This document shows positions 39,241 through 54,809 of a DNA stretch of 64,000 bases, in pieces. The notes under the pieces were generated by a model. It did no database searches and was not told the DNA's origin. It worked only from the letters and a program-made list of their open reading frames with translations. The DNA lies in assembly GCF_000172555.1 (NCBI RefSeq), contig NZ_ABOX02000010.1, positions 1 through 64,000 on the forward strand. Direction: 5' to 3'. Position 1 is the first letter of the stretch, and each line of letters starts with the position of its first letter. Source of the DNA: Pedosphaera parvula Ellin514 (GTDB taxonomy: Bacteria; Verrucomicrobiota; Verrucomicrobiia; Limisphaerales; Pedosphaeraceae). Position numbers and translations under genes: made by a program.

Positions 39241-39570
39241 GTGTGGTTAATCTAGTCCTCCTGCTTGCCTGCAAACTACAATTGTGAGAGCCGAATTTGC
39301 ACGATTTTCGAGAAAGAAAACAAATCAAAGTGCTACATGACTTGACCATTCAGAGAACCTTACCGGACTCCGGCGCTTGGCCTGATTATCGGATTCACCG
39401 TCCTATCGCAATTCCAGTGGAGTCGTTTGGGCAAAATATTAAGTCGTGATGGCCGCAAACGCCCCCTGAGCTTGTGTAGAGTTATTTAGTCCAATAAGTG
39501 CTGCCCGGCGAAGGAACGAACAAGCTGAGCGCCAGCTTGCTATACCGAATGTCAAAAGAAATTTCCGAAT

Positions 39571-39670
39571 GGCAGGAGGGATTTTGATTTGAGGCAAGGC
39601 GGAGGCCGCAGGCGCTATCAGTAGATAGCGACCAGGCCGACAACGCCGCCTCAAATCAAAAGCACCCTGC
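39571..39670. repeat. Structured hairpin element, short form (GGCAAGGCG/CAACGCCGCC core)
   Basis: TTTTGATTTGAGGC (39582-39595) pairs perfectly with GCCTCAAATCAAAA (39648-39661). Inside, GGC-AA-GGCG faces CGCC-GCC. The tip is CGCTATC (39613-39619) with GATAGCG (39624-39630). Outer flanks GCAGG and CCCTGC extend the pairing. The core motif GGCAAGGCG...CAACGCCGCC is shared with the 280-bp elements at 51789 and 53387, although the outer and apical sequences differ. It lies 3' of the GH13 gene. Confidence 0.7.
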
Positions 39671-39808
39671 TCACAATGACTAATGAATTTCCCCGTCCCC
39701 AAGCCCATGACTCATCAGTCTCCACTTTCTGCAGACTTATTTTCTGCCTTCCTTCCGGTTCTTTTCCCCATTTCGGAAATTAATATTGGCATTGGGTATA
39801 TACAAAGC

Positions 39809-51410: not shown

Positions 51411-51788
51411 GTGGTCGAAGAGTTTTACGCTTGCCAGCTGAGTGCAGTTTGCCTCTGCGGCAATCCCAAGCCATTAGGCAATTACGTCTGCGCCATCTGC
51501 TGGCGACAGGTTCCCGAAGAGCTAAAGAAGGAGCTCACCTGGCATGGCTTCAAAGATAAAACTGTACTGGTGAAACGCATCGAAGCCATCGCCTCCTGTC
51601 GCAACTCGGATTACATCGAAGGAATGAGATTGACCAGGCATGGATTTCCTCTCCTGCGCACCTCCGAACCCATGGAGTTTATGCGCATGTTTGAGCCTCA
51701 AACCGAAATCGTGCAAACGGAAATTAACAACCCGCAAGAGCCCGCAACCTTGAGTCGACTACCCACCGATTGGGAGGAATGGCTTTAG
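51411..51788 (+). CDS. Hypothetical protein with putative zinc ribbon (125 aa)
   Basis: Residues 8-30 have cysteines in CLCGNPKPLGNYVCAICW, two pairs of a possible zinc knuckle, then an amphipathic helical part. The start is a GTG with AGAAGGG about 8 bases upstream; no ATG exists in this frame. Its function is unknown. The stop codon is at 51786-51788, and the structured 280-bp element begins on the next base. Confidence 0.55.
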   Translation: MVEEFYACQLSAVCLCGNPKPLGNYVCAICWRQVPEELKKELTWHGFKDKTVLVKRIEAIASCRNSDYIEGMRLTRHGFPLLRTSEPMEFMRMFEPQTEIVQTEINNPQEPATLSRLPTDWEEWL

Positions 51789-52062
51789 GAGCCTGTTTTA
51801 AAATTATGGAGGGTGCTGTTTTCGCGCCAAAGGCCGGATGGCAAGGCGCGACGAAGGAGAATATCCCTGGTGGATCTTCGACTGAGGAGCAACGCCGCCA
51901 GGCGGCCTTTGGCGCGAAAACCCTCCGGGCGGCAGTGCTTTTGGCCGCAGCCTGCGTTGGCTCGGCCCTCACAGCCCGCTTGGGGGGATGCTCCGGCCTC
52001 GCCGCCTTGGCCGCGGCCAAAATCCCCAACCGCAGCACCCTCCATAATTTTAAAGCAGGCTC
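51789..52062. repeat. 280-bp structured element, copy 1
   Basis: Outer ends 51789-51818 and 52033-52062 pair over 30 positions with a single G-T wobble. Arm 1: 51819-51835 pairs perfectly with 51904-51920. Arm 2: TTTTGGCCGC (51939-51948) pairs with GCGGCCAAAA (52013-52022). Inside arm 1, GGCAAGGCG faces CAACGCCGCC. It is 85-90% identical to copy 2 at 53387. Short open frames occur in both strands but track the palindromes. It starts immediately after the stop codon of the 125-aa gene. The role is unknown: terminator, processed RNA or MITE-like element. Confidence 0.85.
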
Positions 52063-52131
52063 TAAGCTCTTTTCCCCAAACTTTTGAAAATGGCCGTGGA
52101 AAAATTCAGACCTGCCTGCTAATCTGGAGGC

Positions 52132-52434
52132 ATGGGATTGTCTGCCATGAACTTAAGCCGGCGCTTGAGTCTAATTTTTCTCGGTATTACGGCCACCATG
52201 CTCATTGCTGGTCAAACCGTCCTTAAATCGCATCTGCAACAGCAGGCATTCATTTATTATTGGTTGATTTGCTTCACTTTCACCGCCCTCACTTTCATTG
52301 CCGCCCTGATCGACTTGCGTTCTGTCCGCCGCCGCTCACGGGAAGAACAAAAGGACCTGCTTCGCAAGGCTTTGCTGGACTTGGATAAAACCAATCGGGA
52401 CGGCCATAAGGATCGGCCGGATCAGTTCGAATAG
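52132..52434 (+). CDS. Small two-helix membrane protein (100 aa)
   Basis: The product has two membrane segments (LIFLGITATMLIAGQTVL and FIYYWLICFTFTALTFIAAL) followed by a basic, charged C-terminal tail (RSVRRRSREEQKDLLRKALL). GGAGG precedes the first ATG closely, and a second in-frame ATG at 52147 would remove five residues. I do not recognise a family. It sits between structured element copy 1 and the SirB1-like gene, all on the plus strand. Confidence 0.65.
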   Translation: MGLSAMNLSRRLSLIFLGITATMLIAGQTVLKSHLQQQAFIYYWLICFTFTALTFIAALIDLRSVRRRSREEQKDLLRKALLDLDKTNRDGHKDRPDQFE

Positions 52435-52507
52435 GCTGTTCATTTAAAGCGTTGATTCTGATTGTATTTCGTAAAATTCTGAAGCATCCTTTTGCAGTTG
52501 GCAGCAT

Positions 52508-53380
52508 ATGAATTCTTCCACCGCCGCCCAAACACCTGAGATGCCCTCGGAAAGCCAGAAAGCAGCCCTAATCACCCTCCTGTCAGATGAGGATCCCGGA
52601 GTGTACCAAACGATTCGCGATAAAATTCTATCCTTCGGCCACGAATCCCTCTTCTGGTTGCGTCCCCATACTTTGAGCAGCAACCCCGCGTTGCGCCGCC
52701 GTGTTCAGGAGATTGTTCAACATTTCGCTCGTAAAGAGGCCGATAATCGTTTTCTCGCTTTCTGCCTGACGGAGGGAGAAGATTTAAACTTGGAACAAGG
52801 CGCCTGGCTCCTGACTCAGACTCAATTTCCTGATACGAACCTCGAGGCTTATCAGGCACTGCTTGACAGCTATGCCGGTGAACTTCGCGAACGCATTGAT
52901 CCACGCGGTGAGGCGGAACATATCATCGGTAATTTTAACGACTACCTGTTCGGTGTCCTTGGCTTTACTGGAAACGAACAGAACTACTACGAACCCGAAA
53001 ATAACTACTTAAACCGGGTCATGGATCGTCGGACTGGCAATCCCATAAATCTTTGTCTGGTTTATCTGCTGCTCGCGAAACGTCTTCGCCTCCCCATTGT
53101 AGGCATCGGGCTGCCTGGTCATTTTATCTGCCGTTTCCAGTCCTCATCCGAGGAATATTACATCGACGTCTTTAATAAAGGGAAATTGTGGACCAAGGCC
53201 AACTGCATCCAGTACCTCCTCTACGGAAACTATCCGGTCTCCGATGAACACCTTGCCCCGGTCACTTCTCGTCGGATGTTAATACGCATGTGCGGAAACC
53301 TTCACCAGATTTATCACAATCTGGACCGGCACGATGAAACCACCCGTCTTCAAAGGTATCTCATCGCTCTCGCAAAATAG
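52508..53380 (+). CDS. SirB1-like transglutaminase-related protein
   Basis: The 290-residue protein matches the SirB1_N/transglutaminase-like group. After a helical N-terminal part (about 1-120), it has NFNDYLFGVLGF, the NYLNRVMDRRTGNPINLCLV block with the conserved Cys region, GIGLPGHFICRF and EYYIDVFNKGKLW. Family members with this layout are thought to be catalytically reduced transglutaminase folds of unknown role. The stop at 53378 is six bases before structured element copy 2. Confidence 0.8.
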   Translation: MNSSTAAQTPEMPSESQKAALITLLSDEDPGVYQTIRDKILSFGHESLFWLRPHTLSSNPALRRRVQEIVQHFARKEADNRFLAFCLTEGEDLNLEQGAWLLTQTQFPDTNLEAYQALLDSYAGELRERIDPRGEAEHIIGNFNDYLFGVLGFTGNEQNYYEPENNYLNRVMDRRTGNPINLCLVYLLLAKRLRLPIVGIGLPGHFICRFQSSSEEYYIDVFNKGKLWTKANCIQYLLYGNYPVSDEHLAPVTSRRMLIRMCGNLHQIYHNLDRHDETTRLQRYLIALAK

Positions 53381-53386
53381 CTTTCA

Positions 53387-53675
53387 GAGCCTGTTTTAAA
53401 ATTCTGGAGGGTGCTGTTTTCGGGCAAAAGGCTGGATGGCAAGGCGCGACGAAGGAGAATATCCCTGGTGGATCTTCGACTGAGGAGCAACGCCGCCAGG
53501 CGGCCTTTTGCGCGAAAACCCTCCGGGCGGCAGTGCTTTTGGCCGCAGCCTGCGTTGGCTCGGCCCTCACAGCCCGCTTGGGGGGATGCTTGGTGCCCGT
53601 GCGGAAGCACCTCGCCGCCTTGGCCGCAGCCAAAATCCCCAGCCGCAGCACCCTCCATAATCTTTAATCAGGCTC
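53387..53675. repeat. 280-bp structured element, copy 2
   Basis: Copy 2 has outer ends 53387-53416 and 53646-53675 (26 of 30 pairing), arm 1 at 53417-53433 with 53502-53518, and arm 2 with a longer tip containing GGTGC...GCACC. In arm 1 the left C and right G at one pair of copy 1 are A and T here, so the pairing is kept. Another change (C to T) remains a wobble, and one change breaks a pair. The element fills the gap between the stop of the SirB1-like gene and the convergent PLD gene, ending on the base before that gene's stop. Confidence 0.85.
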
Positions 53676-54809
53676 TCAACTCGGAATCCACTTGGCCTGC
53701 CATCGCGCGATAATTGGGTCAGCTCTGGCGATGATGAAGTAAGCCCATCTCTGTTTGAAACGTTCCCACCAACTCCTCGATTTCCGCCAGGCTTCCAGCT
53801 CGATTTGCCGGCAGTTTTGAAGATTATTCTCAAACAAACTTCTCGCCTCATCTGCCAGATCATCGTTTTTAAAACGCAGCATGAACTCATAGTTTATATA
53901 TAAGCTGCGCGGGTCCAGATTTGATGACCCAACATAAACCACGTCATCCACCAAAATCATTTTGGCATGCAGGATTTGTGGCTGATATTCGTAAATCTCA
54001 ATTCCCGCCCTCAGCATGCGTCGATACAAACTTTGGCCCGCAAGTTGCGACAACGTTACATCCGATTTTCCGGCCAGGATTAATTGCACTCTTCCACCGC
54101 GTCTCGCAATGCGAAACAAATCCCTGCGAATCTTGCGCGTCGGCACAAAATAGGCGGCAATGATTTGAACGCTCCTCGCGTGCATCAGGTCCGTCCGTAA
54201 CGCCCTCTTAAAAGGACTTCCGCGTCCGGGACCGCTCAGCAATAATTCCCCATCCTGCTTGATGATGTCTTTCTTGGCCGAAGATTTTCGCCACTGAGCA
54301 AACCGTTTGTGCGATGTATAAGCGCGCCCGAACATCTCATCAAATGTGGCTGCCAGATCCGCAGCCAGGGAATTCTCGATTCGCAGTCCCAAATCATACC
54401 ATCCTGTCTTGATACCATCTCCCTCGTATTCCTTCGCAATATTAAACCCTCCCACAAACGCGACCTCTTCATCGCACACGAGCATTTTACGATGGTCGCG
54501 AAATCCAAACCGTTTAAGCCGGTTCGGATTAAACCACCGCGCTTCTCCTCCAGCGGCGATCAGTGGCTGCCAATAATCCGATCGAAGTCGCTGCGACCCC
54601 AGCGAATCCACCATGACTTTTACCTTTATGCCCCGCTGACATGCCTGGATCAAAGCCTGTCGAAACTTTTCGCCCACTGAATCGTCAGAATAAATGTACG
54701 TTTCCAGCCGGATGGACTTTTGGGCCGAATGGATTGCCTCCAACATGGCCGGAAAAACATCATTTCCAGTGCATAACCAGTTGTAACAATTGGAGTTAAG
54801 CAATAGCAT
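53676..54809 (-). CDS. Phospholipase D/cardiolipin synthase-like protein
   Basis: The 377-residue protein has two HKD motifs of the PLD superfamily: HRKMLVCDEEVAFVGG (about residue 122) and HAKMILVDDVVYVGSSNLDP (about residue 296). They form one bilobal active site with a covalent phosphohistidine intermediate. Length and spacing fit ClsA/YwnE-like cardiolipin synthases without the N-terminal membrane helices. It probably acts in phospholipid metabolism at the membrane. It is convergent with the SirB1-like gene, separated by structured element copy 2. Confidence 0.86.
   Translation of the reverse strand: MLLLNSNCYNWLCTGNDVFPAMLEAIHSAQKSIRLETYIYSDDSVGEKFRQALIQACQRGIKVKVMVDSLGSQRLRSDYWQPLIAAGGEARWFNPNRLKRFGFRDHRKMLVCDEEVAFVGGFNIAKEYEGDGIKTGWYDLGLRIENSLAADLAATFDEMFGRAYTSHKRFAQWRKSSAKKDIIKQDGELLLSGPGRGSPFKRALRTDLMHARSVQIIAAYFVPTRKIRRDLFRIARRGGRVQLILAGKSDVTLSQLAGQSLYRRMLRAGIEIYEYQPQILHAKMILVDDVVYVGSSNLDPRSLYINYEFMLRFKNDDLADEARSLFENNLQNCRQIELEAWRKSRSWWERFKQRWAYFIIARADPIIARWQAKWIPS

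Follow-up and report, generated by a model that had tools for sequence, protein, structure and literature searches.

We analysed a 64,000-nucleotide stretch of the Pedosphaera parvula Ellin514 genome (contig NZ_ABOX02000010.1, positions 1 to 64,000), hereafter the window, in which two repeats lie beside the 3' ends of genes (Table 1). Their description in an earlier sequence-only reading, as near-identical structured repeats with complementary ends and two internal arms, is confirmed: the copies share a 215-nt block at 96% identity and a 73-nt block at 90%, the two ends of copy 1 pair at 97% over 30 nt and those of copy 2 at 85% over 34 nt, inner arms are present in both, and for copy 1 with short flanks the predicted folding energy is -176.5 kcal/mol, which 200 shuffles place at a z of -11.0. 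Copy 1 starts at the base right after the TAG stop codon at 51786-51788, as had been stated. Copy 2, said to fill the whole gap between two stops, nearly does so: it abuts the stop of a minus-strand ORF at 53676-53678, while 6 nt are left between it and the left-hand stop at 53378-53380. The longest ORF overlapping copy 1, among those of at least 80 aa, encodes 137 aa and extends out of the element, which carries no transposase gene. For the remark that no transposase lies nearby, a search of the P. parvula genome with the Pfam profile PF01609 gave no match on the window's contig. A small hairpin (AACCC, a few nucleotides, GGG) lies between the arms at 51919-51929 and was seen by eye in several genomes (loci L086, L087 and L106).

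Table 1. Repeat elements, flanks and hairpin modules in the window (R2, search model for the hairpin module)
Feature	Position	Strand	Remarks
Element copy 1	51789..52062	+	MITE-like, 274 bp
Copy 1 left 3-bp flank TAG	51786..51788	.	Stop codon of upstream ORF 51411-51788
Copy 1 right 3-bp flank TAA	52063..52065	.	Imperfect match to left flank
Copy 1 left terminal inverted repeat	51789..51818	+	Self-complementarity of ends
Copy 1 right terminal inverted repeat	52033..52062	-	Self-complementarity of ends
Copy 1 arm 1, conserved tandem-GA hairpin module	51835..51903	GA strand +	R2 73.2 bits, in training set
Copy 1 arm 2, divergent module	51946..52016	GA strand -	R2 50.2 bits, in training set
Element copy 2	53387..53675	+	289 bp
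Copy 2 left target duplication TCA	53384..53386	.	
Copy 2 right target duplication TCA	53676..53678	.	Stop codon (TGA on -) of ORF 53676-54809
Copy 2 arm 1 module	53433..53501	+	R2 72.0 bits
Copy 2 arm 2 module	53545..53629	-	R2 16.5 bits, E 0.005; 15 nt longer than in copy 1
Copy of a different repeat family	39540..39800	+	At least 40 long genome matches; ends TATACCGAATGCC, limits approximate
Divergent module inside the 39540-39800 repeat	39588..39654	+	29.2 bits, E 1e-6, outside R2 training set

The identity of these repeats as mobile elements with a target duplication was absent from the sequence-only reading. The P. parvula genome (7.41 Mb in 102 contigs) holds the element at 13 places and in both orientations; 11 of these copies are full-length (270-290 bp), one is shortened to 208 bp by an internal deletion, and one is truncated. 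The 3-bp TNA flanks are identical in 8 of the 12 two-ended copies (for example TAA/TAA, TTA/TTA and TCA/TCA) and unequal at copies L001, L003, L005 and L007. Copies L003 and L006 are nested inside another repeat family, the one represented in the window at 39540-39800, and when 20 of the at least 40 long matches of this host repeat were compared, all 18 other copies proved uninterrupted at that site, with a single TGA. The junction of copy L006 reads TAA, element, TAA and then GGCAAGG; at copy L003, some neighbouring bases were lost at the nesting site. Because the repeats are present in copies with matching TNA flanks and have an empty target site, we are confident that they are MITEs (non-autonomous transposons) inserted with a 3-bp TNA duplication.

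Selection on structure had been proposed from a single pair in arm 1, where the two window copies differ by a C-G to A-T double change. The comparison of these two bears the change out, but the case is weak over 12 copies from the same genome: two have C-G at this pair (columns 41/124), five have A-T, and in the other five the pair is broken (A-G in 4, C-T in 1). Double changes occur in 2 of the 93 pairs of the consensus fold of this 12-row alignment, its covariation term of +1.54 is slightly unfavourable, and uncompensated changes are present in the arms; from the two figures, own-genome copies alone are therefore no proof of structural selection. The proposal stands through the covariation of the arm module across phyla, and not through the pair on which it was based.

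This module is a hairpin of about 60 nt that is held in the arms and is marked by tandem G-A/G-A steps. In the predicted fold, an outer stem is followed by an AA bulge, a GGC/GCC helix, a 3-nt AAC bulge and GC/GC, and inside these lie the tandem G-A/G-A steps, 1 and 2 Watson-Crick pairs apart, and then a variable hairpin. Arm 2, taken on the minus strand, aligns to arm 1. A hand-chosen alignment of 11 modules, from which the covariance model R1 was built, is 94.9% paired, with a covariation of 0.409 as against 0.130 in shuffles and at most 0.057 when slid. A larger set, aligned with MAFFT, comprised 43 modules, namely 40 of the 79 pattern modules at below 85% identity and three from the P. parvula genome and genome G006. 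Here 88.0% of cells are paired, double-change cells number 183 compared with 63.1 in shuffles, and covariation is 0.524, whereas shuffles give 0.164 and slides of 1-3 columns no more than 0.106. Pairs that show any double change number 13, which is not above shuffles, 352 of 500 of which reach 13, so the signal resides in the number of double-change cells. An alignment of 124 rows fitted to R1 gave a similar covariation result; it contains 142 G-T versus 38 A-C cells, or 72 versus 38 when one wobble pair (70 G-T) is left out, and this excess of G-T over A-C therefore identifies one strand as the folded strand. Each of the six G-A step positions keeps G-A in between 89 and 101 of the 115 distinct rows, a conservation that is partly built in because several of these letters are fixed by the search pattern and belonged to the training data of R1; the pattern left the first 5' GA and its 3' G partner free. 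Since the cross-phylum covariation exceeds both shuffles and slides, we conclude that the module is very probably under selection as a folded single strand.

The module is not confined to the element of the window, and occurs in three repeat families of the P. parvula genome. Bases 54-119 of the element match a shorter element with different ends, found in this genome and in genome G007; this second family is about 160 bp long, carries a single module at its centre between ends like AGGCCTCGTAC-GAAATAA, and is present at C6:46756, C32:74377 and C97:4379 in P. parvula and in more than 20 copies in G007. A third family, outside the R2 training set, was matched at all 5 loci searched (E between 2e-5 and 9e-5). 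A further weak module match (R2, E 0.0016) lies just outside one P. parvula copy, at 1381-1449 of locus L010. A genome of the same genus, G001, carries a related element with diverged ends; at its locus L032 the arm 1 core is inverted relative to the window element and both modules lie on one strand.

Beyond the genus, the spread of the module is wide but patchy. With strict filters, which make the figures a lower bound, R1 matched 18 of 387 genomes of the phylum, P. parvula itself included, in 14 of 198 genera; under strict filters too, 3 of 289 genomes of Alphaproteobacteria matched, one of them being the centre of the search. Where flanks were readable among 30 R1 loci, the matches sit in palindromic elements with various ends. 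The exact degenerate pattern was found in at least 115 stretches under about ten phylum labels in a species-level genome collection, often several per genome and with many MAGs among the sources. By record title, the matches listed include 57 stretches from Acidobacteriota, 27 from Verrucomicrobiota, 9 Myxococcota-like, 7 from Alphaproteobacteria, 2 from Gammaproteobacteria, 3 from other proteobacteria, 2 from Bacillus, and one each from Omnitrophota, Euphemobacter, Elusimicrobia, Gemmatimonadetes, Bacteroidota (Lewinella), Aminicenantes, Nitrospinota and the PVC group. Contigs labelled Bacillus sp. 2B10 (loci L212 and L225) bear a Sphingomonas-like element at 67-68% GC, and probably come from a mislabelled or contaminated assembly. 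Per-genome copy numbers by the search model R2 run from 1 to at least 150 (the scoring cap) in the 24 genomes behind the chosen loci. BLAST with the whole element, by contrast, found no more than partial matches, and these in 3 of the 7 other genomes of the family to which P. parvula belongs. The degenerate pattern had no match in viral contigs, and neither the whole element nor a Sphingomonas element matched plasmids or phages. In the same plasmid and phage search, another copy gave one 26-bp end match, which led only to an interrupted element, and a short consensus gave 5 partial matches, at chance level.

Elsewhere, as in the window, the module is mostly enclosed by complementary ends. Among the 64 loci with enough flank (of 81 pattern hits from the first 80 loci), a flank complementarity score above 24 was reached by 59, as compared with 3 of 64 mispaired controls. 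Of the 64 elements, 20 have YTAR at each end, compared with 3 that have it at interior control positions; YTNAR (10 at the boundary, 5 interior) and TNA (21 and 27) are not clearly raised. The element ends in these genomes are script-assigned and may in some cases correspond to inner stems. The 64 elements do not represent as many families: lenient single linkage of the ends at 81 places (from 94 module places with flanks) yields 18 sequence groups, of which the largest, with 44, is probably over-merged. In 17 genomes we found elements with two modules, which are convergent in 16, on the same strand in one (G001, locus L032) and divergent in none; this count rests on sets of 97 and 62 chosen loci and omits two neighbours outside the element, the host-repeat module in L006 and the weak match in L010. 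Start-to-start spacing is mostly 105-114 bp, and 126-127 bp in the P. parvula copies with longer tips. Some second modules are weak (L183, E 0.19-0.47; L127, E 0.32 with R1; L097, E 0.3).

IS5 groups of insertion sequences use a TNA or YTAR target, the former of which we observed in P. parvula and the latter at both ends of some elements elsewhere. Judging from this target site and the form of the ends, the elements are most likely mobilised in trans by an IS5-type DDE transposase. Pattern searches allowing 1-2 mismatches in draft assemblies yielded no autonomous element sharing these ends in P. parvula or genome G396, and none for the second family in G007 or P. parvula; partners may be lost. 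The resemblance of ends that we did find spans two Sphingomonas genomes: an IS (DUF4096, DDE_Tnp_1) with ends GGGTCAGGACYCAT and, in another Sphingomonas, a module MITE with ends GGGTCTGAACTCA have similar ends and flanks. Since no partner was found and the resemblance is one of ends across two genomes, IS5-type mobilisation is put forward as an inference. A recurring end like the element's own, GAGCCTGTGTGAAAA, was also noted at C22:35231 in P. parvula, next to a transposase fragment (PF01609, 22 bits), and at four other places.

The placement of the window copies had suggested a role at the 3' ends of genes, which analysis of gene context did not support. Among 71 classified pattern loci, 28 lie between convergent genes, 5 between divergent genes and 38 between tandem genes, compared with 39, 42 and 119 in the background (convergent versus divergent, p 3e-4); gene calls were simple longest ORFs, 14 loci that were far or at an edge were dropped, and short-flank or duplicate loci were skipped. 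Between tandem genes, the module strand is the same as that of the genes in 21 cases and opposite in 17 (p 0.63). A stop codon is touched by 6 of the 13 P. parvula copies, a number that a preference for TNA would in itself increase, since 38 of the window's 551 TNA sites outside coding sequence are stop codons. A TNA stop codon forms the flank at L004, L007 and L009 (3 of 13, p 0.056), or at 4 of 13 when L001, with TAG, is added (p 0.010), and at L011 and L012 the stop was created by the insertion itself (TTA plus the element's G). A gene-3'-end function as the main reading was rejected, given the absence of module strand bias and the slight excess of stop codons over the TNA expectation. Gene-end placement fits insertion-site availability better than a gene-end role, and agrees with insertion at TNA sites, stop codons included, together with avoidance of divergent promoter regions. 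A replication-strand role was also rejected, GC skew being positive at 52 and negative at 59 of 112 loci, and positive at 13 of the 37 that are strongly skewed. Promoter and terminator scans of the sequence revealed nothing convincing. No Rfam 15 family matched the window at its gathering threshold, and 13 loci of several phyla gave one match, lying elsewhere in L086 and not on the element; this Acido-Lenti-1 RNA (L086, 2550-2595), just over threshold and about 0.9 kb from the module without overlap, was set aside. Eight weak Rfam matches fall on the element, six of them to microRNA models.

These data bear on whether the hairpin acts for the host as RNA, that is, as a structured RNA at gene 3' ends or an sRNA (a terminator, an mRNA stabiliser or a protein-binding RNA), which we judge unlikely. 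The covariation, with its excess of G-T over A-C, and the enrichment between convergent genes (28:5 against 39:42) speak for such an RNA, and a transcript of a two-module element from either side would carry one hairpin in the GA form; sRNAs are also described from some published MITEs in the part of PMC5896051 consulted. Against it stand the even 21:17 strand distribution beside tandem genes, the opposite strands of the two modules in 16 of the 17 genomes whose elements hold a pair, the lack of any Rfam family at threshold on the element, and the patchy presence (18 of 387 and 3 of 289 genomes under strict filters). We favour a function for the element over one for host genes because there is no strand bias, paired modules lie on opposite strands and the spread is patchy.

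A different account would do without selection: the repeats would be plain MITEs whose covariation arose by template switching, which corrects quasi-palindromes as they are replicated. Long near-palindromes readily undergo this correction, and both the uncompensated arm changes among P. parvula copies and the inverted arm 1 core at L032 are compatible with it. The process would, however, erase G-A mismatches, yet these are kept in most of the 115 rows, even at the first 5' GA that the pattern leaves free, and it would predict no excess of G-T over A-C; the retained G-A steps thus argue against simple palindrome correction, an account that we regard as improbable. Repeats of the REP/REPIN type, moved by a RAYT transposase, are likewise palindromic, intergenic and sometimes in inverted pairs. 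REPs are not known to have long terminal repeats or a target duplication, both of which are present here, and we give this assignment hardly any credence.

We suggest that the repeats belong to a superfamily of MITEs extending across phyla, whose members would differ in their terminal repeats and have in common one or two core hairpins of about 60 nt. Taken as a whole, this reading of TNA-inserted MITEs from a superfamily with a shared structured core seems to us likely. The core would serve the element itself as a folded single strand. Its acting form would probably be hairpin DNA exposed in replication or transposition and less probably RNA, a choice in favour of DNA on which our confidence is evenly divided. 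A shared hairpin in such distantly related bacteria suggests an old common part. More tentatively, and with somewhat less than even confidence, we propose that the G-A hairpin is the ancient functional core of a superfamily of some ten phyla, passed between elements with different ends and needed, as single-stranded DNA or RNA in its folded form, for transposition or persistence.

MITEs are usually viewed as passive remnants known by their ends; an interior that is conserved and covaries across elements whose ends differ would imply that it has a function. In the literature searched, mostly non-subscription journals, we found no description of a core common to MITEs with different ends, and among the matches listed for module sequence strings there was no paper on such repeats; one of these strings presumably also occurs in 16S rRNA. 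The module elements are like bacterial MITEs of the IS5 type in being short, non-coding, intergenic and multicopy, with terminal inverted repeats and a TNA/YTAR target. In the sections consulted of a review (PMC10969869), MITEs are decayed IS derivatives, those of type II sharing only their ends with an IS, whereas here the interior is common and the ends differ. The Chunjie MITE of Geobacter (178-235 bp), named in the same review, is alike in being multicopy and intergenic, as far as its description goes. QMITE2 of Coxiella burnetii is described, in the part of PMC5896051 consulted, as an element of about 190 bp that overlaps gene ends by a short distance and has a strong hairpin and 7-9 bp direct repeats, with relatives in some alphaproteobacteria that keep a conserved stem and vary at the tip; the consulted sections of the review place it mostly in 3' untranslated regions (PMC10969869). 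Compared by these partial descriptions, QMITE2 resembles the window element in its strong hairpin and gene-end overlaps and differs in having 7-9 bp direct repeats in place of TNA. On the same descriptive basis, its relatives may be related to the module elements. Among animals, CORE-SINE superfamilies, which are eukaryotic retroposons, unite otherwise unrelated mobile elements through a conserved central domain, and it is in this shared core, as an analogy that claims no relation of sequence or mechanism, that the bacterial elements described here resemble them.
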